A stretch of 64,000 nt of DNA from Novibacillus thermophilus (GTDB taxonomy: Bacteria > Bacillota > Bacilli > Thermoactinomycetales > Novibacillaceae), in contig NZ_CP019699.1 of NCBI RefSeq assembly GCF_002005165.1, positions 2,170,001 to 2,234,000 on the forward strand, given 5' to 3'. Positions 39,820-64,000 of the stretch are shown one piece after another. Under the pieces are notes generated by a model, which searched no databases, was not told the DNA's origin, and worked only from the letters and a program-made list of their open reading frames with translations. Position 1 is the stretch's first letter. Each line of letters begins with the position of its first letter. The position numbers and the translations under genes are program-made.

Positions 39820-39840
39820 GTTTCAGTAGTTGAAACAGAT

Positions 39841-39875: not shown

Positions 39876-39910
39876 CAAGCTGTCATTTTATCAAAAAAGA
39901 GGTCATCAAC

Positions 39911-41434: not shown

Positions 41435-41456
41435 AAAAAAGACTGGAGGAAGATCG

Positions 41457-42461: not shown

Positions 42462-42479
42462 AAGATACGGGGGATTCCC

Positions 42480-43316: not shown

Positions 43317-43331
43317 ATTTTATTCACGATC

Positions 43332-43343
43332 TTAAGCGCTTAA
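43332..43343. promoter_or_regulatory. TTAAGCGCTTAA operator in front of iolD
   Basis: Perfect palindrome 27 bases upstream of the iolD start codon, in a 53-base gap. It is the fifth copy in the region and links the iolDEBCJA genes to the LacI regulator at 35447. No clear promoter hexamers are visible in the short gap. Confidence 0.7.
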
Positions 43344-43369
43344 CGTCAAGAGGAGGTTGAAGTGAAAAA

Positions 43370-45298: not shown

Positions 45299-45325
45299 TA
45301 TTTGGGAGAAGAGAGGTAATCAGCC

Positions 45326-46240
45326 GTGAATTATAGCGACAAAATCGGCATCGCCCCGATTAGCTGGGTCAATGACGACATTCCCGGTCTCGGGGACGAC
45401 TTGTACACTGCGGATCAAGTTTTAGCAGAAATGGCTTCTCTTGGGTATGTCGCTACCGAGATGGGACGCGTATTCTCACAAGATCCCGCAGGTTTCAAAG
45501 GGAAATTAGAGAAACACGGCATTCAGTTAGCTAGTAAATTTGTGGGGACGTTGTTTTCTGATGCGAATCGCTTGGAAGCGGAACTGCACTCTTTTAGTGA
45601 GTGGGTGGACTACTTGAAAGACATGGGCAGTCAGTACGTCATTGTGTGTGAAATGGGCGGGTCCATGCATTGGGATCCACGGCGTTCTTCTGACGATAGG
45701 ACAATCCAAGCGTTAAATGATCAGGAGTGGCAAACTTTAGTAGACGGTCTCCATCGGGCAGCAAAAATGTCTCGAGCCAACGGTTTGCAGTTAGTCTATC
45801 ATCCACACGCAGGTACTGTTGTAGAAACCGCCGATGAAGTGGATCGCTTGATGGCGTCAACTGATCCGGAGCTGGTGCACCTTCTGTATGATACGGGGCA
45901 CGCTCTATACGGCGGGTACGACCCCCTGGAGCAGTTGATCCAATATTATGATCGTATCCAGTACGTTCACTTGAAAAATATTCGTAAAGATGTACTGGAT
46001 CGTGTTCGCAAGGAGAACATGGACTTTCGCTCCTCAGTGCTCAGCGGTTTGTTTACCGTGCCGGGAGATGAAGAGGGCTGCATCGATTTTGTCCCTATAT
46101 TTAATGAATTAGTTAGAAGAAACTACGACGGCTGGATCGTCGTAGAAGCGGAACAAGATCCTGCCAAAGCTCATCCCTACACATATGCCAAGATGGCGAA
46201 GGAATATATTGATTCAACTTTTTCGATGGTCATGAATTAA
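45326..46240 (+). CDS. iolE: IolE, inosose dehydratase
   Basis: Cobalt- or manganese-dependent dehydratase that converts 2-keto-myo-inositol to the trihydroxycyclohexane-dione. The 304-residue TIM barrel starts IGIAPISWVNDDIPGLG, a typical IolE beginning, and has LVYHPHAGTVVET, LLYDTGHALYGG, YVHLKNIRKDVLD and VVEAEQDP, which supply the metal ligands. It lies between iolD and iolB in the usual pathway set. A paralogue occurs at 32068 in the neighbouring locus. Confidence 0.94.
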   Translation: MNYSDKIGIAPISWVNDDIPGLGDDLYTADQVLAEMASLGYVATEMGRVFSQDPAGFKGKLEKHGIQLASKFVGTLFSDANRLEAELHSFSEWVDYLKDMGSQYVIVCEMGGSMHWDPRRSSDDRTIQALNDQEWQTLVDGLHRAAKMSRANGLQLVYHPHAGTVVETADEVDRLMASTDPELVHLLYDTGHALYGGYDPLEQLIQYYDRIQYVHLKNIRKDVLDRVRKENMDFRSSVLSGLFTVPGDEEGCIDFVPIFNELVRRNYDGWIVVEAEQDPAKAHPYTYAKMAKEYIDSTFSMVMN

Positions 46241-46263
46241 CAATGGAAAGGTGGAGGAAAGCG

Positions 46264-47076
46264 ATGAGTAAATTAGTGGTTCCTAGTCGCCATCCAGATG
46301 AAACGGGAAACGTCGTCCGTGTGACCCCTGAATCGGCTGGGTGGGAATACGTCGGTTTTGAAGTTTATGCTTTGCACACGGGCCAAACCTTGAGAAAAGA
46401 GACAGGCGAACAAGAAGTGTGTATCGTCTTGTTACAAGGAAGAGCGACGGTTTCCAGCAAACATTGCAAGTGGGACGACATCGGTCAGCGGATGAACGTC
46501 TTTGAAAAAACGCCCCCCTATGCGGTGTACATTCCCGATCACGACGTGTACGAGATTGAAGCGGTGACTGATGTACAGTGTGCGATCTGTGCCGCTCCGG
46601 GAAAAGGGAACCACGAAGCGAGACTGATTGCTCCCGATGATGTCGGCGTGGAGATCAGGGGAGCCGGAAACATCGAACGACGCATCCACAACATTTTGCC
46701 GGAGCAACAGCCGGCAGATAGTTTACTCGTCGTGGAAGTGTTCACCCCAGACGGGCATTGGTCCAGCTATCCGCCGCACAAGCACGACCGAGAGAACTTG
46801 CCGCATGAATCGTACTTGGAGGAGACGTACTACCACAAAGTACATCCTGTGGGCGGCTTCGTCGTACAACGCGTGTACACGGATGACCGCTCCCTCGATG
46901 AGACGATGGTCGTCAATGACGGGGATGTCGTGCTCGTACCGAAGGGTTATCACCCGGTGTCTGTGCCACCGGGGTACGAAGGGTACTATTTAAACGTGAT
47001 GGCTGGTCCTGTGCGAACGTGGAAGTTTCATAACGACCCTGACCACGCATGGATCATGGAGACGTTTCAGAAATAG
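46264..47076 (+). CDS. iolB: IolB, 5-deoxy-glucuronate isomerase
   Basis: Cupin-fold isomerase converting 5-deoxy-D-glucuronate to 5-dehydro-2-deoxygluconate. The 270-residue protein has two cupin halves; the second carries the metal ligands in YPPHKHD, ESYLEETYYHKV, and a later HPVSVPPGYEGYYLNVMAG stretch. ATG 46264 is chosen because GGTGGAGG lies just upstream; an in-frame ATG at 46243 overlaps that ribosome binding site and adds seven residues without similarity. It follows iolE by about 20 bases. Confidence 0.94.
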   Translation: MSKLVVPSRHPDETGNVVRVTPESAGWEYVGFEVYALHTGQTLRKETGEQEVCIVLLQGRATVSSKHCKWDDIGQRMNVFEKTPPYAVYIPDHDVYEIEAVTDVQCAICAAPGKGNHEARLIAPDDVGVEIRGAGNIERRIHNILPEQQPADSLLVVEVFTPDGHWSSYPPHKHDRENLPHESYLEETYYHKVHPVGGFVVQRVYTDDRSLDETMVVNDGDVVLVPKGYHPVSVPPGYEGYYLNVMAGPVRTWKFHNDPDHAWIMETFQK

Positions 47077-47109
47077 ACAAGGTGACAACAGGGAGAAGCT
47101 GAATGGAAC

Positions 47110-47195
47110 GAGCGGTATAGGTGGAGAGTAGATGGCGTGCTTCACAACGAGAGGCCGTAGCATACCGCTCATCCCCCACTCGCACTGTGCAGTGC
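47110..47195 (+). other. structured spacer between iolB and iolC
   Basis: GAGCGGTAT (47110-47118) is the exact complement of ATACCGCTC (47162-47170), and GCACTGTGCAGTGC (47182-47195) is a separate short hairpin. The rest of the roughly 185-base gap contains no recognisable gene. No poly-T tract follows, so a terminator is unlikely; an mRNA-stability or regulatory role is possible. Confidence 0.4.
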
Positions 47196-47262
47196 TTTAC
47201 AGTGCTTCTAGAATCGCGCAACGAAAGACATGATTAAACAGTACGTTGAAAGCAGGGATAAC

Positions 47263-48285
47263 ATGCGTTTGTTACATTTTGATACCGACAAACCGATGGA
47301 TTTTATAGCAGTCGGCCGACTGTGTATTGACTTGAACGCGAATGAGATCAACCGTCCGATGGAAGAAACGGTCACATTCACTAAGTATGTCGGCGGTTCT
47401 CCCGCCAACATCACCGTCGGGATGGCACGGCTCGGGATGAAAACCGGCTTCATCGGACGCGTAGCCGATGACCAGATGGGTCGCTTCATTCGGCACTACT
47501 TGGAGGAGAATGGCATCGATACGTCATCCGTCATTACAGACGAACCTGGGAGTGTGACCGGATTAGCGTTTACCGAGATTAAAAGTCCGACGGACTGCAG
47601 CATCCTCATGTATCGGGACAATGTGGCTGATTTGAATTTATCGCCACAGGATGTGTCGGAAGACTACATCAAACAAGCAAAGTTGCTGTTGATCTCTGGC
47701 ACGGCACTGGCAGCTAGTCCGTCTCGGGAAGCGGTTTTTTTAGCTGTTGAGTACGCACGTAAGCACGGCGTCGTCGTCGTGTTTGACCTCGATTACCGTC
47801 CTTACACGTGGCAGTCAGTTGAAGAAACGGCCACCTACTATAACCTCGCAGCTGAGAAATGCGATGTCATCTTTGGCACGCGGGAAGAATTCGACATGAT
47901 GGAGCAATTTGAAGCTGATCGGTCTCACGACGATCAGGCGACGGCAAACAAATGGTTTGACTACCACGCCAAGATTGTCGTGATTAAACACGGTAAGGAC
48001 GGCTCTATCGCCTACACGAAAGACGGCCAGTCGTATACAGGGACGACGTTTCCCGCGAAGGTGATCAAAACTTTCGGGGCTGGCGACGCTTATGCATCCG
48101 CTTTTATTTATGGACTTATGCGGGGATGGGACATCCCGAAATGCATGGAGTTCGGCAGTGCGTCCGCAGCCATCGTCATTTCCAGCCACAGCTGTTCTGA
48201 CGCGATGCCGACAGCCGACGCCATCGAAGACTACATGGAAAAATGCCGCAACGGCGAAGTGGCAAGTCATGGACACATCAATTGA
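47263..48285 (+). CDS. iolC: IolC, 5-dehydro-2-deoxygluconokinase (PfkB family)
   Basis: Kinase of 340 residues that phosphorylates 5-dehydro-2-deoxygluconate. The PfkB signature 1 is GGSPANITVGMARLGMK and signature 2 is TFGAGDAYASAFIYG, including the catalytic Asp. MDFIAVGRLCIDLNANEINR is typical of IolC rather than fructokinase. ATG 47263 has AGGGA upstream, whereas an in-frame ATG at 47230 lacks a ribosome binding site and would add 11 residues. It ends 14 bases before iolJ. Confidence 0.93.
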   Translation: MRLLHFDTDKPMDFIAVGRLCIDLNANEINRPMEETVTFTKYVGGSPANITVGMARLGMKTGFIGRVADDQMGRFIRHYLEENGIDTSSVITDEPGSVTGLAFTEIKSPTDCSILMYRDNVADLNLSPQDVSEDYIKQAKLLLISGTALAASPSREAVFLAVEYARKHGVVVVFDLDYRPYTWQSVEETATYYNLAAEKCDVIFGTREEFDMMEQFEADRSHDDQATANKWFDYHAKIVVIKHGKDGSIAYTKDGQSYTGTTFPAKVIKTFGAGDAYASAFIYGLMRGWDIPKCMEFGSASAAIVISSHSCSDAMPTADAIEDYMEKCRNGEVASHGHIN

Positions 48286-48299
48286 ATCAGGAGGTTACG

Positions 48300-49133
48300 A
48301 TGCTCGTTACGTTAACAGAAGTGATCGATGGGGTGAAAGGGAAAGAATGTGCCATTCCGGCCTTTAACGTTTTTGGTTACGAGGACGCTGCCGCTGTCAT
48401 AGCGGCAGCAGAACAGTTGGGGGCGCCTGTCATCCTAGCGACGAATAAAGTTGCGATTGAACATATGCCAATTCAACACTTAGGAAAGTTGTTATGTTCG
48501 ATGGCGGAGAGTGCGAGCGTCCCCGTTTGTGTTCACCTTGACCACGGCAAAGACTACGAGACTGTAGCTGAAGCCATTATGCATGGCTACTCCTCCGTCA
48601 TGTACGACGGATCGCAGCTGCCACTCGCAGAAAATATCCGCACGACGCAAGAAATTGTAAAAATGGCGCACGCGTGTGGCATCCCAGTCGAAGCGGAAAT
48701 CGGTTCCGTCGGCTACAGCGATCCGAGTATGAATGTGAAAGCCTGCTATACAGAACCGGAGGAAGCGCGCACGTTTGCCGAGGAGACCGGCGTCGATGCA
48801 CTGGCCGTCGCAGTTGGAAGCGTGCACCGTATGGAAGAACAAACAGCTGAAATTCAGTTCGACCGATTACAAGCAATTCAAGATCTCGTTGAGACACCGC
48901 TTGTTATCCACGGTTCAACTGGCATAACTGACGAAGACGTAAAACGGTTAGTGACGTTCAACGTTGTGAAGGTGAACATTGGGACAGCAATCCGCATGGC
49001 GTTCGGCCACACGTTGAGAGAAGAGATGAACCGACAGCCGCGGCAGTTTGATCGCATCACTCTGTTTCAACGGCCGATGCAGGCTGTACAGGACGCGGCG
49101 GTGAAGAAGATGAAACTGTTAGGGCTTGGCTAG
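48300..49133 (+). CDS. iolJ: IolJ, class II 6-phospho-5-dehydro-2-deoxy-D-gluconate aldolase
   Basis: Zinc-dependent aldolase of 277 residues that splits the phosphorylated intermediate into dihydroxyacetone phosphate and malonate semialdehyde. The class II features are PVCVHLDHGKDYE with the catalytic Asp and first zinc His, EAEIGSVGY, and VIHGSTGI with a second zinc His. ATG 48300 is preceded by CAGGAGG. The family also includes fructose-bisphosphate aldolase, but position between iolC and iolA identifies it as IolJ. Confidence 0.92.
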   Translation: MLVTLTEVIDGVKGKECAIPAFNVFGYEDAAAVIAAAEQLGAPVILATNKVAIEHMPIQHLGKLLCSMAESASVPVCVHLDHGKDYETVAEAIMHGYSSVMYDGSQLPLAENIRTTQEIVKMAHACGIPVEAEIGSVGYSDPSMNVKACYTEPEEARTFAEETGVDALAVAVGSVHRMEEQTAEIQFDRLQAIQDLVETPLVIHGSTGITDEDVKRLVTFNVVKVNIGTAIRMAFGHTLREEMNRQPRQFDRITLFQRPMQAVQDAAVKKMKLLGLG

Positions 49134-49165
49134 TAGAAAAACTTGTGAGACAGGGAGTGGTTTAA

Positions 49166-50629
49166 GTGACAACAACGACGACAGACGAGAACGTTCTGAA
49201 CAACTTGATCGGCGGAACATGGAAGCCGGCGACATCCGGTCAGACGGAGGTCGTCCCGAATCCTGCCACCGGTGAAACGCTCGCCCGCGTTCCGATCTCC
49301 AACAGGGAAGATCTGGACGCAGCCGTTAAAGCAGCGAAAGAAGCGTTTCAATCATGGAGCCGGACGTCCGTTCCGAAGCGCGCCCGCATTTTATTTAAAT
49401 ATCAACAGCTGCTCGTCGACCATTGGGACGAACTGGCGAAGCTGATCACCCAGGAGAACGGTAAAAGCTATAAAGAAGCGTACGGTGAAGTGCAACGCGG
49501 CATCGAGTGCGTGGAGTTTGCCGCCGGGGCTCCGACGCTCATGATGGGGAAGCAGTTGCCAGACATCGCGACGAACATCGAATCGGGGATGTATCGCTAT
49601 CCGGTGGGAATCGTCGGAGGAATTACCCCTTTTAACTTTCCGATGATGGTACCGTGTTGGATGTTTCCCCTCGCAGTTGCCTGTGGCAATACGTTCGTGC
49701 TAAAACCGTCGGAGCGCACGCCGATTTTAGCGAACCGCTTGGCTGAGCTGTTCCAGGAAGCGGGGTTGCCGGACGGTGTTTTGAACGTCGTCCACGGCGC
49801 CCACGACGTCGTGAACGGGTTGCTGGAGCATCCTGATGTGAAGGCGATCTCTTTTGTCGGGTCCCAACCCGTAGCTGAATACGTGTATCGTACCGGAGCC
49901 GCTCACGGGAAACGGGTACAAGCACTGGCAGGAGCAAAAAACCATACGATTGTCATGCCCGATGCCGATCTCGACGCCGCGGTACAGCAGATTATCGGTG
50001 CTGCATTCGGTTCGGCAGGCGAACGGTGTATGGCGTGTTCCGTCGTCGTCGCCGTCGGGGAGATCGGGGATCGACTGCTCGACAAACTCATTCGGGCAGC
50101 AGATGAGATCGAAATCGGAAACGGCTTGGATGAAAATGTTTTCCTCGGTCCAGTTATCCGGGACTCCCATAAAGAAAGGACGATCAAGTACATTGAGACC
50201 GGAGAGAAAGAAGGCGCGTTGCTCGTGCGTGACGGACGTCGCGATGCGGCGACAAGTGAACGAGGTTATTTCGTAGGGCCGACGATATTTGACAATGTCA
50301 CACCGGAGATGAAGATCTGGCAGGACGAGATCTTCGCGCCTGTGTTGTCGTATGTCAGAGTAGACAGTTTGGAAGAGGCGATCGAGCTGGCGAACAAGTC
50401 TGATTTCGCCAACGGCGCTTGTCTGTTCACGAAAGATGGTCACAATGTGCGTACGTTCCGGGAAACGATCGATGCCGGCATGTTGGGCATCAATCTCGGA
50501 GTGCCAGCGCCCATGGCTTTCTTTCCGTTTTCCGGTTGGAAAAACTCTTTCTACGGCGACCTGCACGCGAACGGACCGGACGGTGTCGAATTTTACACGC
50601 GCAAAAAAATGGTAACGGCCCGTTGGTAG
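49166..50629 (+). CDS. iolA: IolA, (methyl)malonate-semialdehyde dehydrogenase (CoA-acylating)
   Basis: Last enzyme of the pathway, converting malonate semialdehyde with NAD and CoA to acetyl-CoA and CO2. The 487-residue protein has the ALDH fold; [13 protein letters not shown] begins it, the nucleophilic cysteine is C288 in GERCMACSV, and [20 protein letters not shown] near the C-terminus is specific for methylmalonate-semialdehyde dehydrogenases. GTG 49166 follows AGGGAG. A rho-independent terminator immediately after the gene marks the end of the iolDEBCJA operon. Confidence 0.95.
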
Positions 50630-50643
50630 GCATTTGTGGATTT

Positions 50644-50665
50644 GGGGGAGGAATCTCCCCCTTTT
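50644..50665 (+). terminator. rho-independent terminator after iolA
   Basis: GGGGGAG (50644-50650), loop GAAT, CTCCCCC (50655-50661), then TTTT (50662-50665). The stem is perfect and very GC-rich. It lies between iolA and the next dehydrogenase gene at 50692. Confidence 0.8.
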
Positions 50666-50691
50666 ACGAACTTTTGAGGGTGGTTAGATGA

Positions 50692-51705
50692 ATGAAAAAT
50701 AAAAATATTAATTGGGGGATTTTAGGTACAGCCGAAATTGCCGATTTGCATGTGGTTCCTGCGTTGAATCAGGCTAAAAATGCCACTGCTTTGGCAATTG
50801 CAAGTTCAAGTGGCAAAGCCAAATCATTTGCCGAAAAACATGGCATACCTAGAGCTTACGGATCATACGAAGAATTGTTGAGAGATCCGGAAATTGATGC
50901 CGTTTACATCCCGCTTCCAAACCATCTTCATTCCAAGTGGGTAAAAATTGCGGCTGAACATGGAAAACATATTTTGTGTGAGAAACCGGCTTCATTATCA
51001 GCAGCAGAAACAAAAGACATGATAGACGTGTGTAACCACTATAATGTTTTATTTATGGAAGCGCTCATGTACCAGTTTCACCCCCAACACCTGCGTGTCA
51101 AAGAGATGATCGCAGATGGGATGATTGGTGATGTTATCACAATGCGCTCATCTTTCACATTCATGCTCCAAAAAAAAGAAGGCAACTTTCGTTTGAATGC
51201 ACGAACTCAAGGAGGCGGAAGTCTATATGACATTGGTGTTTATTGCATCCACGCCATTCGCGCTATTCTAGGGGAGCCAACAAACGTATACTGTGAGGCC
51301 TCTTTAGATGAATCCGCGGATGCAGATTGGTCAGCAGTAGCTATTCTACAGTTTGAAAATGGAAAGAGAGCTCATTTTGACTGTGGAATGAATGCTTCCA
51401 CCCGTAACGAATATGAAATCGTTGGCACGAGAGGGACGATTCGTGTACCTAAAGCATTTATACCACAAAAGGACGGGAAAGGCATCATCGAGATAATTGA
51501 CCCCGATGGAAACATTCAGAAAGAAACGTGTATAGGAAACTACTACAAGATTGGTGTAGAAAATTTTTCAAACAGCCTTTTAGAAAATAAATCACTCGTA
51601 TATAAACCGGATAGCAGCATACACAATATGAGCGTGCTAGATGCCTGTTTCGCCTCAATCGAGAAAAATAGTACAGTGCCGGTGGTACATCTAAGAAAAC
51701 TTTAA
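50692..51705 (+). CDS. Gfo/Idh/MocA family oxidoreductase
   Basis: NAD(P)-dependent dehydrogenase of 337 residues. The Rossmann motif is WGILGTAEIADLH, the catalytic lysine is in LCEKPASLS, and GGGSLYDIGVYCIHAIRAILG carries the active-site Asp, Tyr and His. This tyrosine-containing form resembles glucose-fructose oxidoreductase or xylose dehydrogenase-like members rather than IolG. The start ATG 50692 follows GAGGGTGG. The gene lies behind the iolA terminator and is visibly richer in A and T than the iol genes before it, as is the iolG gene that follows. Confidence 0.88.
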   Translation: MKNKNINWGILGTAEIADLHVVPALNQAKNATALAIASSSGKAKSFAEKHGIPRAYGSYEELLRDPEIDAVYIPLPNHLHSKWVKIAAEHGKHILCEKPASLSAAETKDMIDVCNHYNVLFMEALMYQFHPQHLRVKEMIADGMIGDVITMRSSFTFMLQKKEGNFRLNARTQGGGSLYDIGVYCIHAIRAILGEPTNVYCEASLDESADADWSAVAILQFENGKRAHFDCGMNASTRNEYEIVGTRGTIRVPKAFIPQKDGKGIIEIIDPDGNIQKETCIGNYYKIGVENFSNSLLENKSLVYKPDSSIHNMSVLDACFASIEKNSTVPVVHLRKL

Positions 51706-51724
51706 AATATTTTGGGGTGATATA

Positions 51725-52765
51725 GTGAAAAAGACTTCCGTTGGTATTATTGGTGCAGGGAAAATTGGGAAGCTGCACATAAATAATTTGGTAACAATGA
51801 ATGAGGTGAATATTCGGGCGATTTCTGATGTGTATATTGATCAAATGTCGGACTGGGTGAATACACTAGATGTTAAGTATACAACGAAAAATTACATGGA
51901 AATTGTGAACGATCCAGATATTGACGCGATTCTTGTATGTACACCGACAAAGTTGCATTCAGAAATTGTTATTGCCGCAGCGGAAAAGAAGAAGCATATT
52001 TTTTGTGAAAAACCGATTAGCTTCAATCTCGAAGATTCATTAAAAGTATTAGATGCTGTTAAAAAAGCTGGCGTGATTATGCAAGTCGGTTTTGTAAGGC
52101 GCTTTGACCGCAACTTTAGGCAAGTGCACGAGATAGTTAAGTCCGGTAAAATCGGTACACCACATATTATTCATATTTTCTCTAGGGATCCTGAACCAGC
52201 ACCGAGGAAATATGTTCGGCACTCTGGTGGAATGCCGTTTGATATGACGATTCATGACTTTGATATGATTCGTTATTTAACACAGTTTGAAGTAGAAGAA
52301 GTATACGCCCAAGGTTCTGTACTTATCGATCCATTTTTTGAAGAGTGTAATGATGTTGACACTGCAGTATTCACGTTAAGATTCACCAATGGCGCAATCG
52401 GTGTTGTTGATAACAGCCGCCGAGCAGAATACGGCTACGATCAACGCGTCGAAGTATTCGGATCGAAAGGATCGGTCAGCATTAAAAATGACACAAATCA
52501 CACAGTGGAAGTTATAACAAAGGACGGCACTTTATCTGATAAGCCAAAATGGTTTTATCTCGAACGATACAATGACGCATTCAAAGAAGAATTACGTTCT
52601 TTCTTAAATTGTGTAACGACAGGGACAGAACCTACAGTGAGTGCTTATGACGGTCTTCAGGCGGAATTGCTCGCGCATGCAGCAACCATATCCTTACAAG
52701 AAAAACGGCCAGTGAAAATCCAAGAAGTGTTGAAACAAACAGACCTGCGCTTAAGAGATCATTAA
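51725..52765 (+). CDS. iolG: IolG, inositol 2-dehydrogenase
   Basis: NAD-dependent dehydrogenase of 346 residues that makes the first step of inositol catabolism, inositol to 2-keto-inositol. The Rossmann motif is VGIIGAGKIGKLH, the catalytic lysine is in FCEKPISFN, and MPFDMTIHDFDMIRYLTQ holds the Asp and His typical of IolG. It starts at GTG 51725 behind GGGGTG. A closely related paralogue is at 34368. It is the last metabolic gene before the second insertion-sequence island. Confidence 0.92.
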   Translation: MKKTSVGIIGAGKIGKLHINNLVTMNEVNIRAISDVYIDQMSDWVNTLDVKYTTKNYMEIVNDPDIDAILVCTPTKLHSEIVIAAAEKKKHIFCEKPISFNLEDSLKVLDAVKKAGVIMQVGFVRRFDRNFRQVHEIVKSGKIGTPHIIHIFSRDPEPAPRKYVRHSGGMPFDMTIHDFDMIRYLTQFEVEEVYAQGSVLIDPFFEECNDVDTAVFTLRFTNGAIGVVDNSRRAEYGYDQRVEVFGSKGSVSIKNDTNHTVEVITKDGTLSDKPKWFYLERYNDAFKEELRSFLNCVTTGTEPTVSAYDGLQAELLAHAATISLQEKRPVKIQEVLKQTDLRLRDH

Positions 52766-53160: not shown

Positions 53161-54772
53161 CTACCGATTTTCAGGGGCATTCGGCGAAATATCCCATTTT
53201 TTTGGGGGTTCATCTAAATTCAGGGCTGAAACAATCACCTTTTGTTCCGGTGTTAATTCCGTTCGTTGTTGGATGGTTCCGTCTGGATGTCGGTAGGTAA
53301 TGACATGCATTTCCTGAAGTATGGATCGCACATTGCGCCACGTCTTTCCCGTTTGGTTTTCGACGACCCGAATGAGCATCAACGCCAACCAACACAACAG
53401 CACATGCGCGCGAATCCGCTCTTCTTTGCGATGGTAAACAGGACGGAGATCCAGAGACGACTTCAATGTTCTAAAAGCGACTTCCACATTCAGCAATTGC
53501 TTGTACCCTAAGGCCACGTCTTCCGTCGGCAGCATGTCGTCCGACGTTCGAAGTAAATATTTACCGTCAAGCCGTTCCATCGCTTTGATGGCCGGTCGAT
53601 CCAAACGGAGATTACCGTGTTTATCGACCTTTAGGTAACGTTTGTAGGTCGGATGACTGACCAAGCGGCAGTGCGCCTTCGTATGCGCCTCGCCGTCCAG
53701 TTCCTTGAGCCGTGACAGTTCTTCCTGCAGGTGAGCCAGATGAGTGTCCCGTTTAGCCGCATCACGCCGTGCTTCCTCAGGATTCCGGACCAGCACATAA
53801 CGTGTTCGTGCTTCGCCAACACCGACAACGACTTCTTTCACTTCGAGGTTGTCGCAAACCTTTTTAAATCGCCCCGGGCTGGATAGCGCTTGTTCCACCT
53901 CGCGTTTTCCTGAGGACAGTTTCTCACCGGCAATGTAGTGCCCTCCGGTGCGTTGCAAATACCGCAGATTGTCATCGGAGGCAAAGCCGCGATCCACAAC
54001 CGTAATGACACGGCCGAGTTTCCACCCGACGAGATCTTGTTTGACTTCCGGTATCACCGTCATATCCGACGTGTTCCCCGGTCACACCCAGCATCGGATC
54101 GGAATCCCCTCCCGCGTAACGGCAAACCCGATGACCGCCTGAGGTAAATCCGGCCGATGATCTTTGGAAAAGCCTTGCCGTCGAAACGTATCCTCATCGG
54201 ACTCTTCGGTTTCAAAATAGGTCGAGGTCGTATCAAAGAAGAGCACATCCACTTCCAGGTTTAACAAACTGGCAACCGCCTGGAACACTTCGTGTTGAAT
54301 GCTCTCTTCAGACTCCAACAGGAAATCCATCGCGCGGTATCCGTGTTGAACATTGAAGGCCGGGAGATCAGGGACGACAACGCTACGTGCGACCCAGTCT
54401 TCCACAGCTAACTTGCTACTCGGTTCAAGGGCTCGGTTTGCGACCATGGCAAACAGAGCGCGTTCCACCGGAGCACGAAAGCCTCGATCCCGAAGCCGAC
54501 GCGTGATCGCCGTGCGAATCCCAAGCTTTTGCCAGAGTTGATCCAGTAACCAAGTCCCGCCGACAGACCGACTTGAGATCAACTTAAGGGCGGGGGCAGT
54601 GTCAACACCAATTGAAAATTCCCCAAAAATAACGTTTTAAAATTCCCCAGTTACAACACTAAACACACGAAATACCTTAGTTACTTACAGCATCACCCCT
54701 TTCAGGTAGATAAGTGTTGGAGTGCTGTTGTGCTTTCCTTTCCCCCGAGGGGAAAAGGGATGGTTAGAAAAT

Positions 54773-55536
<764 letters not shown>

Positions 55537-55540
<4 letters not shown>

Positions 55541-56779
55541 GACAGGATCGCCGCCTCTTCCGCGAACTGATCGTAATCTTCAAGGGATCGTTCGCTCACT
55601 TCCGGCACCGGTGACGACACAAGGCGCGGTTGGTATTCGGCAGGCCGCCTTGTGGGATGTTGCCGGAGCCCTTTTATATGTTCAAGATGGAAGACGACTT
55701 GATGGCGGCCGCTCGCTTTCATGTGCTCCGCGATGAGTGTCCCACCTGCGTAAATCCGGATCCAGCCGTTTTTGTCATCTTGAAGAGACACGGTTTGCCC
55801 GACCCATTCAAACGGAACGGAATAACGATTCGCCTGGTACGAGACTAAACTGTCGGCGCTCACTTTGCGGCGATGGCGTTCGACGGTTTCAAACGGCACG
55901 AAGTTAAAACGTTTCAGTCCCTCTTTGCGCCAACGTTCCAGCGGGACTTCATGGGTCGTGCCGTGCACCCGCACGTTTGCCACGGTATCCATCCAGCGCC
56001 GTGCCTGTAGGTTCAGGTCGTGAAGGCCCTCGAATTCCCGCACACGCGGCCAGAAGTTATGTTTGACGTATTTCACGCCGTTTTCCACTTTCCCTTTTGT
56101 TCGGGCGCGGTAAGGTTGACAGCGTTTGAGGATGAAGCCGTGATGTGCGGCAAAGGCCGCAAACCGCTCGTTCCAAATGACTCCCCCGTTCTCATCCTGA
56201 CCGGTCACCACCGTTTTCATGTTGTCGTACAGAACCGTTCGTGTGATCCCGTTAAAATACTGCATCGCGCGTAGATGGCAACCCATGAGGGTTTCCAGTT
56301 TCTCGTCTTCCGTAAATTCGACATACAGCATCCGCGAGTAGCAGAGGACCATAACAAAAATGTAGAGCCGTTTTTTCCGACCGTGCCAGTCGACGCTGAC
56401 ACGCCCCCAATCCACTTGGGCTTGTTCGCCGGGCGGTGTTTCAAAGCGAACGGTGGCCTTTTCCCGGATGACCGGGCGAAGCGGGCGCATGAAGTCTCGT
56501 AGCAAGGTCGCGCCACCTGTGTAACCATTGGCGCGGATTTCATCGAGAATTACGGCACCGTTCAGGCATCCCTCCTCCATCCGCTGACGAATGTAGTCTT
56601 TGTACGGATCCAACTTTACTTGGCTGTTTCTTTATTCGGTGATAGCTCCGTGGGGCATCTTCCTCCAGCCAGCGCCGAATTGTTTTGCGATCGCGCCCCA
56701 GTTCATTAGCGATTTGGGTAATGTTCATCCCCTTTTGCTTCATGTCTTTGATCATAAAAAACTCCCCATTCTTGATCAT
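55537..56779 (-). pseudogene. istA: IstA, IS21 transposase, frameshifted
   Basis: DDE transposase of IS21. The N-terminal part (from 56779) has the helix-turn-helix MNITQIANELGRDRKTIRRW; the main part (up to 55537) has QAQVDWGRVSVDW with the first acidic residue, the TVLYDNMKTVV segment with the second, and KGKVENGVKYVKHNFW with the glutamate. The two parts are in different frames: one ends KKQPSK, the other continues LDPYKDYIRQR. An extra base in the AAA run (56615-56617 on the plus strand) explains this. IstA and IstB are both damaged as written, so IS21 is probably immobile, unless the indel is a sequencing error. Confidence 0.88.
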
Positions 56780-57308
56780 GGACGTTTCTCTCCTCCCGGA
56801 GAGATTGTCCGTTTTTGGTGGGGAATTTTCAACTGTTACTATTGGGGATTTTACTACCGTTATTCACAGCAGGTGGCGCATCGACCGGGGTATCACCGAG
56901 AAAGCGGTGGATACTGGCGGCAAGACGGCGAAGCCCTTCCGTGTCGAGCTTATCTTTGCGTCTGAAATGGTATAGCACCTTCGCGCGGGGTTGCCTGGTT
57001 TCGGGATGACGCTCATTGTGTGCCAATTGGACATACTGGGTTACGGATCCGTTTTTGTTTTTGCGTGAAATCGTTCGAATATACATGTCTACATTATACA
57101 ACATGTACTACAAAAAGGGAATCAAAATGAATTCTTATTTAACCACAATTTCACTACTGTTGCATAAAACTTGGCAATTACTTGATTGAATATTCAGTTA
57201 TCCATATTTCATCTAATAGGGCTAAAAAGACAAATACCGCATAAAAGGTGGTGCTGCCCATTTGGTAATATTATACAGTTAGTCCTAGAGTGACAACGAC
57301 AAACACGC

Positions 57309-58447
57309 TTATGTCGAGAGTTTTCTCTTTCGCCTCATCGAACGAAATTGGATGCGGTGAAACCATTTTTCATAGGATTTCCAAAGAAAAGATTTTAACC
57401 ATCGTTTTAATTGCAAGATGGACTGCTTCGCTTTGGTCTCCATTTGCACGAGAACAAGCAGACAGTAGGCGATGAGTGCCATGAAAATCTGGTTTTGGAT
57501 GGCTTCCTCACTCGTTCCGAAAAAGGTTTTGATTCGCACGTGTTGCTTAAGCCACTTGAAAAACAGCTCGATCGCCCAACGCGAACGATAGATGTCACCG
57601 ATTTCTTCGGCGCTCAGGTCAAAACGATTGGTCACAAGGCGAATGACATTGCCTTTCGAATCAACGGTTTCAATGAGCCGGAATACATTTTCCGTTCGTT
57701 TCTGAGGGGTACCGATGACGACCATCGAATCTGACATAATGGGGCTTTCTTCCGCGACGGAAAACGTTTCAAGGGTGCGGATCACCGCGTTTTTCTTCAG
57801 ACGCGAAGCGAAGAAAATCCCTTTATCACAATAGCGGTCAAATCTCTCGTAGTCGACATAACCGCGATCAAAAACGTACATCGCTTCTTTTTCGTCTATG
57901 AGAACCTCCAATTGGGTACGGTCGTGGATGTTAGCCGGTGTAACGATGGCCTTTTCCGGATAGACCGTTCCTTTGTCCATAAAGACAAGGCGTAAGTGTA
58001 ATTTGACACCGGCCTTCGTCTTGCGAAAAGTGGCCCATTTATAGCGGCTTAAACTTAAAGGAATGGTGCTGGAGTCAATGATTTTGACCGGTAGATCCAC
58101 CCGTTTCTTGCCTTGTTTGTGCCGATGGATTTGCTGAACGAGATGAAGAAACACATTGGCCATCAGCGATGGATCCACTTCCCTATTCTTTCGAGACAAT
58201 TGGGAAGCGCTAATCCCATCGAGTCCGAGTGCCTGCCCCAAATCTTCATCGAGTACGGCATCCGAAATTGCGCGTAAACTCTCTTCTTCCTGAAGATGTG
58301 CATACAGGAAAAGCATCAGATAAGCCTTTGTCGTGAGCTTCTTGGTGTATTGTCCTGATTGGTGGCGGCAACTTGTTTTTCAAAATGGGAAAAATTAATG
58401 GGTGCCACCCATTTACCAAATGATGAAATCAGTGTATTCTTGTCCAT
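57309..58447 (-). pseudogene. IS4-family transposase, frameshifted near the N-terminus
   Basis: DDE transposase. The main part (58316-57309, 335 residues) contains VKIIDSSTIPLSLSRYKWA with the first catalytic Asp, MYVFDRGYVDYERFD with the second, and IYRSRWAIELFFKWLKQH with the Y-x-x-R-W-x-I-E block of IS4 enzymes. The expected N-terminus starts at ATG 58447 (MDKNTLISSFGKWVAPINFS) and reads on to AATNQD; then one base is missing near 58350-58354, after which YTKKLTTKAYLMLFLYAH continues in the other frame. Terminal repeats could not be fixed. It stands next to the IS1634/IS21 nest. Confidence 0.85.
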
Positions 58448-58957: not shown

Positions 58958-60334
58958 GTGAAATTAACTATTATTGGAGGAGGGGGCGTCAGAACTCCTC
59001 TGATGGTCAACGGTTTGATCCGCTGGCATGAAAGAGTAAACGTTGACCGTCTAGTCCTTTTTGACACAGATCCCGAGAAATTAAGCGTCATCGGCAACCT
59101 CGTCTCCCATTTAGTTCAAAAAAAGGGTTCCCCGTTTCAAGTGGAAGTCGCGACAGATTTGACTGAAGCTGTTCAGGATGCCGATTTTATCTACACAGCT
59201 ATTCGTGTGGGAGGTGATGTCAGTCGAGTAGTTGATGAAAAGATTCCGCTCAAATATGGAGTTCTTGGACAAGAAACAACAGGACCCGGCGGCTTTGCCA
59301 TGGCCTTGCGCACAATACCTGTCATGCTGGAGTATGCCAAGATAATAGAAGAGGTGAATCCTGATGCGTGGGTCGTTAATTTTACCAATCCATCGGGTTT
59401 AATCACCGAAGCGTTGCAGAAGTATACAAACATCAAAATCGTCGGAATATGTGATGCGCCATCATCGATGAAATTGGAAATCGCCAAATTTTTAAACGAG
59501 CCAGCAGACGATGTGCATATCAATTATTTTGGGCTTAACCATCTCGGGTGGATTAACCGGATAATGGTTAAGGGAGAAGATCGCCTTCCAGAAATGATAG
59601 ATCGTTACGATGCGTTTAGTCAAGGTTTTCCCCACATGTCCAGTTTTCCTAAAACATTCATTCAACAATTGCATATGTTGCCAAACGAGTATTTGTATTA
59701 CTACTATTTTCGGGAAGAAGCTGTTCAAAACATACGACAGAGTTCCCGTACAAGGGGAGAACAAATTGTAGAGCTTAACAGGTCGTTGTTAAGCCAGGTA
59801 GAAGACTGTGTCCAAAAGGGCCAGCTTCAAAAAGCCTTGGATATTTATGAAAAAATGATGAGTGAAAGAACGCGCAGTTACATGAGTAACGAAACAGGTG
59901 GTGCTAAAGGCGATCAATCTGTCACCTTTGAATCAGAAGGATATGAAGGGCTCGCGATGTCAATCATTGAGAGCATTTTGCACAATCGGAGGAAAACGCT
60001 CATCTTAAATGTTCCCAACCAAGGAGTCTTGTCAAGCTTGAAGGAAGACGACGTGGTAGAAGTTACGTGTCTGTTGGACCGTCATGGGCCGGTTCCGTTG
60101 GCTGTCGGACACATTCCGGATCGTGTACAGGGACTGATACACAGTGTTAAAGAGTACGAACGCCTAACAGTTTCTGCGGCAGTAAGCGGAAATTACGAAC
60201 AGGCTTTGCTTGCTTTGACTGTCCATCCGCTTGTTTGTTCTTACTCGTTAGCTAAAAAAATTTTAGATGATTACCTCATTGAACACAGAGCATTCCTTCC
60301 GCAGTTTAAAAAAGGGAGCGGAATACATGCATAA
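58958..60334 (+). CDS. GH4 family glycosidase (6-phospho-beta-glucosidase-like)
   Basis: NAD- and Mn-dependent glycosidase of 458 residues that cleaves glycosidic bonds by an oxidation-elimination route. LTIIGGGGVRTPLMVNGLI is the NAD-binding N-terminus; NFTNPSGLITEAL and GICDAPSSM carry the conserved Asn and metal-ligand Cys, and NHLGWI the metal-ligand His. Overall it is closest to the LicH/ChbF-type 6-phospho-beta-glucosidases. GTG 58958 is eight bases after AGAGGTG and gives the exact family N-terminus; an ATG at 58937 would add seven residues. Its last eight bases overlap the PfkB kinase gene. Confidence 0.9.
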   Translation: MKLTIIGGGGVRTPLMVNGLIRWHERVNVDRLVLFDTDPEKLSVIGNLVSHLVQKKGSPFQVEVATDLTEAVQDADFIYTAIRVGGDVSRVVDEKIPLKYGVLGQETTGPGGFAMALRTIPVMLEYAKIIEEVNPDAWVVNFTNPSGLITEALQKYTNIKIVGICDAPSSMKLEIAKFLNEPADDVHINYFGLNHLGWINRIMVKGEDRLPEMIDRYDAFSQGFPHMSSFPKTFIQQLHMLPNEYLYYYYFREEAVQNIRQSSRTRGEQIVELNRSLLSQVEDCVQKGQLQKALDIYEKMMSERTRSYMSNETGGAKGDQSVTFESEGYEGLAMSIIESILHNRRKTLILNVPNQGVLSSLKEDDVVEVTCLLDRHGPVPLAVGHIPDRVQGLIHSVKEYERLTVSAAVSGNYEQALLALTVHPLVCSYSLAKKILDDYLIEHRAFLPQFKKGSGIHA

Positions 60335-61250
60335 ATACGATGTAACAGTCATCGGGGTTGCCTGCTGTGACATCATTTTTCACGGCTTGCCATCCTTTCC
60401 AAAGTTAGGGGAAGAAATATGGACGGACGGCGTAGAGGTAACAGCAGGCGGGGCCATGAATACACCGGCGGCCCTTTCGCGGCTCGGTCTCAAGATTGCT
60501 TTAGCTACACCGATCGGCAATGATTTTTTCGGACAATTTATCTTGTCCAAAATAGAAGAAGAAAAAATTTCTACCGAATACGTTCAGCGCTTGGATGTAC
60601 CGTATCCTCAGGTTTCTGTCGCTTTAAACTACGATTGTGACCGAGCTTTTGTCTCGTATGCTGAGCAAAGCAAGACAGAACCTTATGTGAAACACCTGCG
60701 TTATGTGATTGAAGAGACGCAGTCAAAACTGATTCACTTTTATGCGTCTTCCAATCCGGAAATGACGGAACTGATGAAAAAGACTAAAAAAAGAGGCCTG
60801 AAAGTGAGTTTGGATTCAGGGTGGGATCCGGTAACCTTACGCTCGGAGCAAATTAAAGAACAAATTCGTTTGGCGGATGTATTCCTTCCCAATTTAAAGG
60901 AAGCTCAGATGATCACTGGGAAAGAAGATGCGCGCGAGGCGTTGGAAGAGTTGTCCAAAATAACTTCCACAATCGTTATAAAGTTGGGCAAGGACGGTGC
61001 CATCGGCAAATGGAACGGAAAGGTATTTGAATCAAAAGGAACGGAATTGGACCCAATTGATTCAACAGGAGCTGGGGACTGTTTCGTAGCAGGGTTCCTT
61101 TACGGATGGTTAAAAGAAATGGATTTTAAACAGTGCCTGTCCATTGCCAATTATTGCGGAGGAGCTTCTGTTAAAGCAGTAGGGGGTTATACTGGAGCAC
61201 CTACTGAAATGCAGTTACAGAAACACTTACTAAAAGTGCAAAATATCTAA
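60327..61250 (+). CDS. PfkB family carbohydrate kinase
   Basis: Sugar kinase of 307 residues. The N-terminus HKYDVTVIGVACCDIIF leads into signature 1 (GGAMNTPAALSRLGLK), and signature 2 is DSTGAGDCFVAGFLYG with the catalytic Asp. ATG 60327 overlaps the GH4 stop, so the two are coupled. A kinase next to a GH4 enzyme and an ABC importer suggests that an imported disaccharide or its product is phosphorylated inside the cell, replacing the phosphorylation that a PTS would provide. Substrate specificity within the family cannot be read from sequence. Confidence 0.9.
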   Translation: MHKYDVTVIGVACCDIIFHGLPSFPKLGEEIWTDGVEVTAGGAMNTPAALSRLGLKIALATPIGNDFFGQFILSKIEEEKISTEYVQRLDVPYPQVSVALNYDCDRAFVSYAEQSKTEPYVKHLRYVIEETQSKLIHFYASSNPEMTELMKKTKKRGLKVSLDSGWDPVTLRSEQIKEQIRLADVFLPNLKEAQMITGKEDAREALEELSKITSTIVIKLGKDGAIGKWNGKVFESKGTELDPIDSTGAGDCFVAGFLYGWLKEMDFKQCLSIANYCGGASVKAVGGYTGAPTEMQLQKHLLKVQNI

Positions 61251-61360
61251 GCAAAAAATCAAAATATCATTAGAAATGACGTGTGTTATATTGATATAAA
61301 TTTATTAGCAAGAGTCAGGCGTTCGGCTCGTGGTTTAGATAATTTGATTGGAAGGAGAGG

Positions 61361-62245
61361 ATGATGAAAGAAAAACGACTTCCGAAAGCCCTTCAAACTT
61401 TTGTAGATCCCTTTCATTTTCGAATATTTGTTGACCGCAATGAAGGAAACTGGAAGATGCCTTTTGAATGGCATGAGAAATTGGAGATTTTTTACACCAT
61501 TTCAGGTAAAGGAAAATATTTTATAGAGGATAAAGTATACACATTTGAGGCTGGCGACCTCTTTGTGATTAATAACCACGAGCTCCATAAAAGCCAGTTA
61601 ATTGACGGTCAACCGTTTGAAGCGTTAATCATTATGTTTAATCCAGACCTGGCGAAGGCCGTTCACCTTGAGGACGGTATGGATCCCCTTTCAATTTTTT
61701 ATGAACGACACAATGATCATCAGTTAAGACTTGACAAGGATTTGCAACGTCAATTTGAAAACGTATTCGACGCGATGAAAACAGAGTATGAAAGGAAACA
61801 AGGTTATTCTCAAAGAATTATCGCTTCTTTACTTCAATGGTTGCTTGTTGAATTAAAGCGGGCTTATGAAAAAAACGATCCGTTAAACAGCGTTGAACTG
61901 TACACGGGCAGCGAACTAAAAGACATTGTAGCAAACGTCCTGGACTATGTTGACATGCATTACTGTGAGGACATTAAACTTTCCCAAATAGCTGCCGAGT
62001 TGTGTGTGAGTCCTTCGTATTTGAGTAGAGAGTTTAAAAAAGAGACAGGGTTTTCATTAGTAGAATTTATATCTTCGAAGCGCATTCGCTTAGCACGGGA
62101 GTTACTCTTGAAGTCAAATTTACAAGTAACCGAAATTGCGGGAAGAGTAGGGTACAACAATGTAACGCACTTTCATTGGACATTTAAAAAAATGGTCGGC
62201 ACGAGCCCGGGAAACTTTCGGAAAATGTACAAACAAAATCGATAG
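61361..62245 (+). CDS. AraC family transcriptional regulator with cupin sensor domain
   Basis: Regulator of 294 residues. The N-terminal cupin part contains FEWHEKLEIFYTISGKGKYF and GDLFVINNHELHK, typical of sugar-sensing AraC proteins. The C-terminal part has two helix-turn-helix motifs (LSQIAAELCVSPSYLSREFK and VTEIAGRVGYNNVTHFHW) and ends GTSPGNFRKMYK. It lies between the kinase and the deacetylase gene, in the same direction, and most likely activates this locus in response to the substrate, like ChbR in the E. coli chb operon. The start ATG 61361 follows GGAAGGAGAGG. Confidence 0.92.
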   Translation: MMKEKRLPKALQTFVDPFHFRIFVDRNEGNWKMPFEWHEKLEIFYTISGKGKYFIEDKVYTFEAGDLFVINNHELHKSQLIDGQPFEALIIMFNPDLAKAVHLEDGMDPLSIFYERHNDHQLRLDKDLQRQFENVFDAMKTEYERKQGYSQRIIASLLQWLLVELKRAYEKNDPLNSVELYTGSELKDIVANVLDYVDMHYCEDIKLSQIAAELCVSPSYLSREFKKETGFSLVEFISSKRIRLARELLLKSNLQVTEIAGRVGYNNVTHFHWTFKKMVGTSPGNFRKMYKQNR

Positions 62246-62282
62246 CGATAGACCTGTTGCTAGACCTAGTAGGGAAAGGAAG

Positions 62283-62984
62283 ATGAATGTGATCGAAGGC
62301 AAAAAAGTTTTGGTCTTTACGGCTCATCCAGATGATGAAGTTGCATGCGGTGGGACAATCGCGAAATTAACGCGGAATAACAACGATGTAGTCGTCGTTA
62401 TCGCGACAAATGGGGATAAAGGAACTCATGATCCCAGTGTTTTACCTGAAGAAATCTCGAAAACGAGAAAAAGAGAAATGGATCGAGCCGCTCAAATTTT
62501 AGGTTTGGATAAAGTGATCTGGTTAGGCTTTGATGACGGGTCGCTAGAAGCTAATCGTGATTTATTGAAAGAAAGCGTTTATCGCACTATTCGCGAAGAA
62601 AAACCTCATGCGGTGATCACTTTTGATCCGTGGAAAAGATGGGATCCACATCCTGATCACCGTACGATTGGTTTTGCAGCGGTAGAAGCGGCTTATCTGG
62701 CCAACGGATGTTGGTATTATCCGGAACACTTAGAGGATGGACTTCAACCACACGATGTAGACGAAATCTATTTATTCCACAGTGATGATCCTAATTATTC
62801 AGTAGATATAAAGGACACTTTTGACGTTAAATTAAAAGCAGCCAATGCTCATGAAAGCCAGAGATTACAGTTTCCGACTTTTGGTGAAAAATATTTGAAC
62901 GGATTAAAGAACCAGGGTGTCTCAGAAGAAGATTGGTATAAAGAGAAATTTCGGAAAGTGAACGATTCAGATTTAACATTTTGA
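62283..62984 (+). CDS. PIG-L family deacetylase
   Basis: Zinc-dependent N-deacetylase of 233 residues of the LmbE/PIG-L family, whose members remove acetyl groups from N-acetylglucosamine conjugates. The catalytic and metal motif is TAHPDDEVACGGTIAKL (H15, D17, D18), and the second ligand motif is WDPHPDHRTIG. There is no signal peptide, so it is cytoplasmic. In this locus it would deacetylate an imported N-acetylated disaccharide before cleavage, the step performed by ChbG (a different family) in chitobiose use. GGAAAGGAAG precedes ATG 62283. It is 13 bases from the binding-protein gene. Confidence 0.92.
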   Translation: MNVIEGKKVLVFTAHPDDEVACGGTIAKLTRNNNDVVVVIATNGDKGTHDPSVLPEEISKTRKREMDRAAQILGLDKVIWLGFDDGSLEANRDLLKESVYRTIREEKPHAVITFDPWKRWDPHPDHRTIGFAAVEAAYLANGCWYYPEHLEDGLQPHDVDEIYLFHSDDPNYSVDIKDTFDVKLKAANAHESQRLQFPTFGEKYLNGLKNQGVSEEDWYKEKFRKVNDSDLTF

Positions 62985-62997
62985 GGAGGAGAACGTT

Positions 62998-64000
62998 ATG
63001 AATAAAAGTCGTGGTTTCTGGAATCGCTTTATAATCCTATTATGTTCATGCTTAATGGGCACTTTTCTAGTTAGTTGTTCGGGTAATTCAAAAACAGGAT
63101 CTCCTCCATCAGATGAGGAAAAAGAAGAGGTTACGATTACGTGGTCTTTTTGGGGAGATCCTTGGGAAGTCGAGATCAACAACAAAGTCAAAGAAGCCTT
63201 TGAAGAGAAGTATCCGCATATTAAAGTTGAAACCCAGCATGCGCCGTGGTCCAATTATTTTGATAGACTGCAGACGCAGTGGGCGGCAGGAGAGTCTCCA
63301 GACGTGATGTTTTTAACCAACGTCCCGAGTTACGCTTCAAAAGGAGTACTAAAAGATCTCACCGGTTTAATTGAGGACGAAGGTTTTGATGTCAATCAGT
63401 TTACTGAAGCTCAGCTAAAGAACTTTGAGTATGACGGTAAATTGTATGGTCTACCTAGAGATAATGACACGAAAGTATTCTTTTACAACAAAAAATTGTT
63501 TGATGAAGCGAATCTACCGTATCCTGAAGAAGGATGGACCTGGAATGATTTACGCGAGTATGCTAAAGCCTTGACAAAAGAAGAAAATGGTAAGGTTGTG
63601 CAATATGGCGTTGCTTTTGAACCGGCTTGGTGGCGGCTTTGGGTCACAAGTAACGGAGGAGAGATATTTGATGACCCAGTCCATCCTACAACGACCACTA
63701 TGCATGAACCTGAGGCTGTCGAAGCGATTCAGTTCTTGGCCGATTTAATGAATGAAGACAAATCCGCCCCATCTTTTGACTTGCAAAGGGATTCCTCGAA
63801 CGTTTCACATTTGTTTATGACCGGTCAGGTAGCGATGGTATTCGGAAATCACGCTTTAATTCCTAACTTTATGGAGGCTGAAGATTTAGAGTGGGATATC
63901 GTCGGCATGCCACGAGCGGAAGGGAAAGATCCGGTTAACGTGGCTGCAGGTGCCGGATATGTCATTTCCGAGAATACCGAACACCTTGAGGAAGCTTTCT
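62998..64000 (+). CDS. sugar ABC transporter substrate-binding lipoprotein, 3' end outside window
   Basis: Lipid-anchored receptor of the family-1 type. The frame is open from ATG 62998, behind GAGGAGGAG, to the window end with no stop. The signal ends in a lipobox FLVSC with C27 modified, followed by a Ser/Gly/Asp-rich linker. Mature features are ITWSFWGDPWEVEINNKVK, the QTQWAAGESPDVMFL stretch and LYGLPRDNDTKVFFYNKK, all usual for sugar-binding proteins. It follows the deacetylase gene by 13 bases. The permease genes would lie just beyond the window, giving the GH4 locus an ABC importer. Confidence 0.92.
   Translation, partial: MNKSRGFWNRFIILLCSCLMGTFLVSCSGNSKTGSPPSDEEKEEVTITWSFWGDPWEVEINNKVKEAFEEKYPHIKVETQHAPWSNYFDRLQTQWAAGESPDVMFLTNVPSYASKGVLKDLTGLIEDEGFDVNQFTEAQLKNFEYDGKLYGLPRDNDTKVFFYNKKLFDEANLPYPEEGWTWNDLREYAKALTKEENGKVVQYGVAFEPAWWRLWVTSNGGEIFDDPVHPTTTTMHEPEAVEAIQFLADLMNEDKSAPSFDLQRDSSNVSHLFMTGQVAMVFGNHALIPNFMEAEDLEWDIVGMPRAEGKDPVNVAAGAGYVISENTEHLEEAF

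Follow-up and report, generated by a model that had tools for sequence, protein, structure and literature searches.

A stretch of 64,000 nucleotides from Novibacillus thermophilus (NCBI RefSeq assembly GCF_002005165.1, contig NZ_CP019699.1, positions 2,170,001 to 2,234,000 of the forward strand), hereafter the window, ends in a run of genes for a family 4 glycoside hydrolase (GH4), a PfkB-family sugar kinase, a regulator, a PIG-L deacetylase and the receptor of an ATP-binding cassette (ABC) sugar transporter. The best reading of this run, which we consider probable, is an operon for the breakdown of an N-acetylated amino-sugar disaccharide, with import, deacetylation, phosphorylation and cleavage by the GH4 enzyme as its steps. 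Read directly from the sequences are the gene content of the locus, the overlap of its kinase and GH4 genes, the substrate subsite of the GH4 enzyme, the linkage of kinase and GH4 across phyla, and the fact that three relatives carry a phosphotransferase system (PTS) where the kinase would otherwise stand.

Open reading frames (ORFs) of the window were read from its ORF list and domains were assigned with Pfam, every match lying above its curated cut-off, which bears out all five genes named in a preliminary description of this DNA. On the plus strand, the GH4 gene runs from 58958 (GTG) or 58937 (ATG) to 60334 and encodes the motifs GGGGVR, CDAP and NEYL (178 bits each for the N and C domains). 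The kinase gene (60327 to 61250, with a likely ATG at 60327 in a frame of 60267-61250; PfkB, PF00294, 148 bits against a cut-off of 25.8) starts inside the GH4 gene, overlapping its end by 8 nt including the stop. It is followed on the same strand, after 110 nt, by the gene for an AraC-type regulator with a cupin sensor domain (61361 to 62245; AraC_binding 63 bits, HTH_18 85 bits), after another 37 nt by the PIG-L (LmbE) gene (62283 to 62984; 120 bits), and after 13 nt by the receptor gene (62998 to 64296, open at the window end at 64000; SBP_bac_1, 132 bits). Permeases had been expected beyond 64000, and two BPD_transp_1 ORFs, their starts set mechanically, do lie there at 64414-65367 and 65292-66221, in a downstream stretch (locus L004, genome 2226000-2245999; window coordinate = L004 + 55999). 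Among the ORFs of the window and this stretch, no ATPase gene was found from the GH4 gene through the second permease; four ABC ATPase candidates stand elsewhere in the genome, any of them being a candidate partner only, and a receptor with two permeases and a shared ATPase is the make-up of a CUT1 importer. Promoter and terminator scans gave no excess over shuffles. The regulator, likened at first to ChbR of Escherichia coli, scored 34 bits with the ChbR model against a cut-off of 264, and it bears no particular likeness to ChbR.

The coupling of kinase to GH4, which had been proposed for this locus and is seen here as a gene overlap, recurs far beyond it. We sampled 86 loci, namely the best 80 of a scan by likeness to the GH4 clade described below, five from a genome search, and L004; L109, L112 and L132 (no usable GH4 ORF) and L072 (a duplicate of L054) were left out, and the 82 kept comprise 72 with Asp after the catalytic Cys (CD), 9 with Asn there (CN) and 1 other. 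Because the loci were picked by likeness to the CD clade, the frequencies hold for the sampled clade and not for GH4 overall. Of the 72 CD loci, 56 have a PfkB gene no more than 1.5 kb from the GH4 gene, and of the nine CN loci none does (Fisher p=7.8e-6); domain coordinates leave these counts unchanged and place 46 of the 56 pairs at most 172 bp apart, both genes share a strand in 47 of the 56, and after clustering at 65% identity the contrast is 29/34 against 0/5 (p=4.4e-4). Among the loci read, members with PfkB come from five phyla (Bacillota, Chloroflexota, Acidobacteriota, Actinomycetota and Pseudomonadota), and on a Sinorhizobium meliloti plasmid the row reads GntR, GH4, PfkB, receptor, ATPase and two permeases. 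Three CD loci without PfkB (L074, L076, L078) carry PTS genes instead, identified by Pfam in L074 as EIIC and lactose/cellobiose-type IIB and IIA, with the same gene clusters in the other two. PTS and PfkB thus seem interchangeable, which would fit a kinase acting on the substrate of the GH4 enzyme.

The GH4 enzyme itself has both Pfam domains, the Cys and His metal ligands and the N-terminal GG motif of its family, and its closest solved structures are 6-phospho-beta-glucosidases, with 1s6y nearest overall. According to the available text of a study of Salmonella ChbF, nine residues line its 6-phosphoglucose (-1) subsite (R96, E112, T113, N150, C172, N173, H203, Y258 and R282; PMC13197890), and in our alignment the E. 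coli enzyme agrees with this list in all nine letters and their numbering. The counterparts in the window enzyme are R90, E106, T107, N144, C165, D166, H195, Y245 and R266 (458-residue numbering), so that eight of the nine are identical, the exception being Asp166 for Asn173. The two arginines R90 and R266 (ChbF Arg96 and Arg282) are kept in 72/72 CD sequences, as are Arg12, Arg83 and Asp166, and both are Thr in MelA. With the two arginines of the 6-phosphate subsite kept, and MelA lacking them, the window enzyme most likely requires a phosphorylated substrate. Position 166 is Asp in 72/72 CD and Asn in 13/13 CN sequences. In a quick tree the window enzyme falls into a clade of 73 rows with an SH-aLRT of 100, which excludes ChbF, a csn-type GH4 (csn being a Streptomyces system described below) and two further GH4 enzymes of its own genome; the clade pattern is GG[AG]G[VMF]R, Cys-Asp and Glu-Tyr. 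Membership of the ChbF-type 6-phospho-beta-glucosidases (the CN clade) is ruled out by the Asp after the catalytic Cys and by the separate clade.

In the pathway that we propose, a CUT1-type ABC importer with an ATPase encoded elsewhere would take the disaccharide in unphosphorylated, and after deacetylation the PfkB kinase would phosphorylate it, presumably at O6. The GH4 enzyme, using NAD+ and Mn2+ with C3 oxidation and C1-C2 elimination, would then split the 6-phospho-disaccharide into a second sugar and a hexosamine-6-phosphate, which could pass to NagB; a NagB-like gene (Glucosamine_iso) is present in the genome. We infer the order of the steps, the O6 position and deacetylation ahead of cleavage, the last in line with ChbF, which needs the 2-amino group freed first by ChbG, as stated in the available text (PMC13197890). 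The preliminary description had put forward this same route for an N-acetylated disaccharide and called the locus chitobiose-like: the outline of the route is well supported by the kinase-GH4 pairing, the subsite, the permeases and the character of the PIG-L protein, and chitobiose is not established. As regards the substrate, N,N'-diacetylchitobiose is possible, and to the same extent so is something outside the sugars named here; an alpha-linked hexosaminide is a doubtful choice, and another beta-linked disaccharide, such as mannosyl-beta-1,4-N-acetylglucosamine (Man-beta-1,4-GlcNAc), an unlikely one.

The best solved matches of the PIG-L protein are archaeal diacetylchitobiose deacetylases (Dac), at 143 bits, against 69 bits for BshB1; it shares 40% identity over 188 residues with Dac 8bgn and has the zinc-site motifs HPDD ... 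HPDH of Dac (CE14). Pch-Dac requires a catalytic His259 contributed by the neighbouring subunit, as given in the available text of PMC9779004, and beyond the aligned core the window protein offers no His as a counterpart of this C-terminal catalytic residue; it ends, like eight aligned relatives, in S-[DNQ]-L, and in several of these relatives a His stands shortly before that end. Of the 72 CD GH4 genes, 17 have a PIG-L domain within 6.5 kb, seven of them in a small and ten in a large protein; the density there is 21 per Mb compared with 2.8 further out (17 and 1 matches, p=0.012). The large proteins (760-1119 aa) belong to L069, L082, L091, L092, L095, L101, L103, L105, L125 and L138, from Actinomycetota, Chloroflexota and Acidobacteriota; those tested have CBM9 or NEW3 domains as well, with CBM9 in L125 and L095.

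Several points weigh against the proposed operon. No PfkB gene occurs in 16 of the 72 CD loci (the three with PTS, eight from Streptomyces, L079, and L073, L075, L113 and L135 with short flanks), and the eight Streptomyces loci (L100, L110, L118, L120, L127, L128, L137 and L140) have no PfkB, PTS or ABC gene in nearly full flanks. The CN control is small, at nine loci, four of which have a flank below 3.4 kb, and both search profiles derive partly from the loci counted. As for the deacetylase, the cluster-level PIG-L contrast between CD and CN is not significant (11/34 against 0/5, p=0.30), and the nine of the ten large proteins that entered the tree form a separate branch, together with one other PIG-L of the window's genome; with PIG-L at only 17 of 72 loci, and the large ones on a branch of their own, deacetylation is therefore an add-on. 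Moreover, the nearest relatives of the window PIG-L, sampled in 398 genomes of the class (11 of which matched, its own included, giving the 12 loci L025-L036), lack GH4 and PfkB genes alike over the 13-19 kb read. This argues against an old association of their branch with GH4 and implies that the window PIG-L was recruited from elsewhere. Some CD-clade members adjoin alpha-mannosidase genes, a further reason not to take chitobiose as established, and no substrate is assigned to CD-clade members in the openly licensed literature, among the matches listed. As a separate observation, each of the eight Streptomyces loci carries a gene of one cluster, in L110 an M64 peptidase by Pfam.

That the route is exactly that of chitobiose, with import of diacetylchitobiose, deacetylation to glucosaminyl-N-acetylglucosamine (GlcN-GlcNAc), phosphorylation and a GH4 cut of the beta-1,4 bond, is a tentative option. 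In favor of it are the Dac-like PIG-L, the nearness of the GH4 enzyme to 1s6y, the lactose/cellobiose-type IIA and IIB of the PTS-linked relatives, and the company of two PIG-L relatives. In L028, a relative with 48% identity shares its locus with a GLMA_2nd protein, whose match to the exo-beta-D-glucosaminidase 5gsm (E 1e-20) ranks behind four beta-1,2-glucosyltransferase/beta-galactosidase rows with E values of 3e-30 or lower, and with a receptor that scores 222 bits with 1zty, listed as Chitin Oligosaccharide Binding Protein, its top match being 225; L026 has the same GlmA-like and chitin-oligosaccharide-type receptor genes. The other contexts are mixed: L025 and L027 pair the relative with another SBP_bac_5 receptor, in L029 and L033 it adjoins a Pyr_redox_2 and rhodanese protein (in that position L034 has an equally long gene, compared by size only), and the neighbors tested in L030, L031 and L032 are an MFS transporter, a RecJ-like protein, a histidine kinase and one protein without a match. 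As proof of chitobiose these neighborhoods, lacking GH4 and PfkB, are weakened. Against chitobiose specifically stand the Asp for Asn173 in 72/72 CD sequences, the missing Dac His, a PTS-YdjC-GH4 operon already present in the genome, and a genome search that gave no GH20 match and one GH18 match, to a protein in which inspection suggests LysM-like repeats (GH19 was not searched for; GH3 had two matches). Nor did the receptor have a weighty chitin-specific match, with 26 bits for NgcE against a cut-off of 400, its PDB and NCBIfam matches giving no sugar specificity. The PIG-L of L088 does retain the Dac His and shares its locus with a BadF-cluster kinase and a CN GH4, so that L088 resembles a chitobiose pathway in the literal sense more closely than the window does. 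There, in Candidatus Fermentithermobacillus carboniphilus, the three genes stand side by side (L088 9959-16188), along with an odd CDEP GH4.

The residue after the catalytic Cys raises the question of the bond. In GlvA, a 6-phospho-alpha-glucosidase, Asp has been proposed as the acid on an axial leaving group, and the CD clade could likewise consist of 6-phospho-alpha-glycosidases, with the operon consuming an alpha-linked N-acetylhexosaminide, which we regard as doubtful. A plasmid GH4 annotated as 6-phospho-alpha-glucosidase has all nine subsite residues of the window enzyme and the Cys-Asp motif CDMP, and CD and CN genes occur together in five loci (L067, L074, L076, L078 and L097), as would be expected of complementary specificities. 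Lactose/cellobiose-type PTS, the type found with CD members, have beta-linked substrates where these are known, and in the tree that alpha enzyme, a single long-branch row, falls outside the CD clade (SH-aLRT 100). The signs are divided: the subsite agrees with the alpha annotation, and both the type of PTS and the overall similarity favor beta. GlvA and BglT each accept either anomer given good leaving groups, as noted in the available text of PMC10628242, and one residue therefore may not decide the anomer. The window enzyme is not of the GlvA type, since it has no GGGSTFTPG motif and does not group with it in the tree, a comparison made with only one long-branch alpha sequence. In four of the shared loci (L067, L074, L076, L078) the two GH4 genes lie around one transporter, and in L097 no transporter was seen beside them; the sharing suggests complementary roles. 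In Fictibacillus enclensis, a PfkB-GH4(CD) pair, an ABC importer and a BadF-cluster kinase-GH4(CN) pair follow one another on one strand (L067 9073-17035).

A broader possibility, which we advance with reserve, is that the CD clade is a GH4 group with a kinase-dependent specificity of its own, other than 6-phospho-beta-glucosidase, directed at an alpha-hexosaminide or at the beta-manno/GlcNAc core linkage, its PfkB partner being a disaccharide-6-kinase. Near Streptomyces L104 are DeoR, GH38, GH29 and GH2 genes, the GH38 cluster recurring in L096, L119 and L134, and near Xanthomonas L116 are GH125, GH92, GH35 and a TonB receptor, the same clusters recurring in L129; both look like N-glycan sets. 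With GH38, GH92, GH125 and GH29, the pair might open the Man-beta-1,4-GlcNAc core of N-glycans by phosphorylating it first, and the PIG-L of the window lineage might adapt the pair to N-acetylated hexosamines. A second N-glycan locus of Cutibacterium acnes resembles these loci in its GH4 gene, sugar kinase, ABC parts and alpha-mannosidases; in the available text it has GH38, GH125, GH20, a GH4 of unassigned activity and a ROK kinase, which sets it apart, with no beta-mannosidase candidate and no PIG-L named there (PMC6160142).

That the kinase acts on a released monosaccharide, and GH4 on a neutral sugar, is improbable: monosaccharides are the usual substrates of PfkB kinases and the best solved match of the window kinase is a ribokinase/YdjH entry, yet both arginines of the 6-phosphate subsite are kept in 72/72 sequences, and PTS, which phosphorylates during import, replaces PfkB in L074, L076 and L078. 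A thiol-biosynthesis or detoxification PIG-L lying in a sugar operon by chance, as the rhodanese neighbors in L029 and L033 and the existence of NCBIfam BshB1 and BshB2 matches might suggest, is equally improbable, given bacillithiol-deacetylase scores below cut-off (BshB1 96 against 182.5 bits, BshB2 76 against 195), a gene that precedes the receptor gene by 13 nt in the same orientation, and the enrichment of PIG-L domains near CD GH4 genes.

Among known systems, E. coli chb (PTS ChbBCA, ChbR, the GH4 enzyme ChbF, and ChbG) is like the proposed operon in having an AraC-type regulator, a GH4 enzyme acting on a 6-phospho-amino-disaccharide and a deacetylase before cleavage, and differs in that the window has ABC and PfkB for PTS, PIG-L for YdjC, and a CD rather than a CN GH4. 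The nearest published design is csnREFGHK of Streptomyces, for chitosan oligosaccharides, which likewise clusters an ABC importer, a GH4 gene and a putative saccharide kinase, as described in the available text of PMC6097792 and PMC5635096. The window does not belong to it, having PfkB, a CD GH4 and an AraC regulator as opposed to the BadF-type kinase, CN GH4 and ROK-like regulator of matching Streptomyces loci. These loci, L167-L170, matched to csn by gene order (identity with SCO2657-2662 unchecked), have the GH4 motif CNVA and a first gene that is ROK-like by eye, and the kinase of L168 is BcrAD_BadFG by Pfam. The archaeal Dac-GlmA pathway uses a related deacetylase on the non-reducing end of diacetylchitobiose and is unlike the window in that GlmA hydrolyses directly, with no prior phosphorylation, and Dac has its C-terminal catalytic His, according to the available text (PMC6566704, PMC9779004). 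GlvA-type enzymes share the nine subsite residues and the Cys-Asp motif, and the example compared is PTS-fed, with another N-terminal motif and a separate branch. The openly licensed literature, among the matches listed, describes no PfkB-GH4-PIG-L operon, CD GH4 clade or PfkB-GH4 pathway. If the reading as a disaccharide operon is right, a stand-alone kinase and a redox GH4 would bring phospho-disaccharide chemistry without PTS to ABC-using bacteria; as the pairing spans five phyla and the matches listed assign it no substrate, work on a handful of purified proteins could lead to the annotation of a large group of genes, and it would also probe the idea that the anomer of GH4 is set by the residue after the catalytic Cys.

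The genome, one contig of 3.63 Mb, has two further GH4 systems, so that with the window operon there are at least three, and the operon is not a substitute. At 686.5-692.6 kb (L037 4526-10587) lie genes for a NamZ exo-muramidase, PTS IIB and IIC, a ChbG-like YdjC, IIA and a ChbF-like GH4, suggesting a system that uses peptidoglycan fragments. With IIB-IIC-YdjC-IIA-GH4 still in place nothing was displaced, contrary to the preliminary view that the window genes replace PTS and ChbG. At 758.0-767.6 kb (L038 8002-17601) a BadF-type kinase gene overlaps a CN-type GH4 gene, and ABC receptor and permease genes follow, in the manner of csnHK. A probable cell-wall recycling cluster at about 2.427-2.448 Mb (L179 and L040) contains genes judged MurQ-like and NagZ-like by eye; two ABC sets and another PIG-L come after them.

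Upstream of the locus and outside the pathway, an insertion sequence (IS) cluster on the minus strand (53161 to 58316; two DDE_Tnp_1 ORFs, IstB and an integrase-core ORF) separates it from an inositol-type catabolic cluster with an ABC transporter at 37543-52765, in which iolG is over its cut-off and the other genes were assigned by eye. PIG-L enzymes are able to act on GlcNAc-inositol, and this cluster may be linked to the GH4 locus. On the other side, 314 nt past the permeases, a short-chain fatty acid transporter gene and one for an M20 peptidase-family protein (L004 10537-13404; window 66536-69403) possibly form a separate unit.

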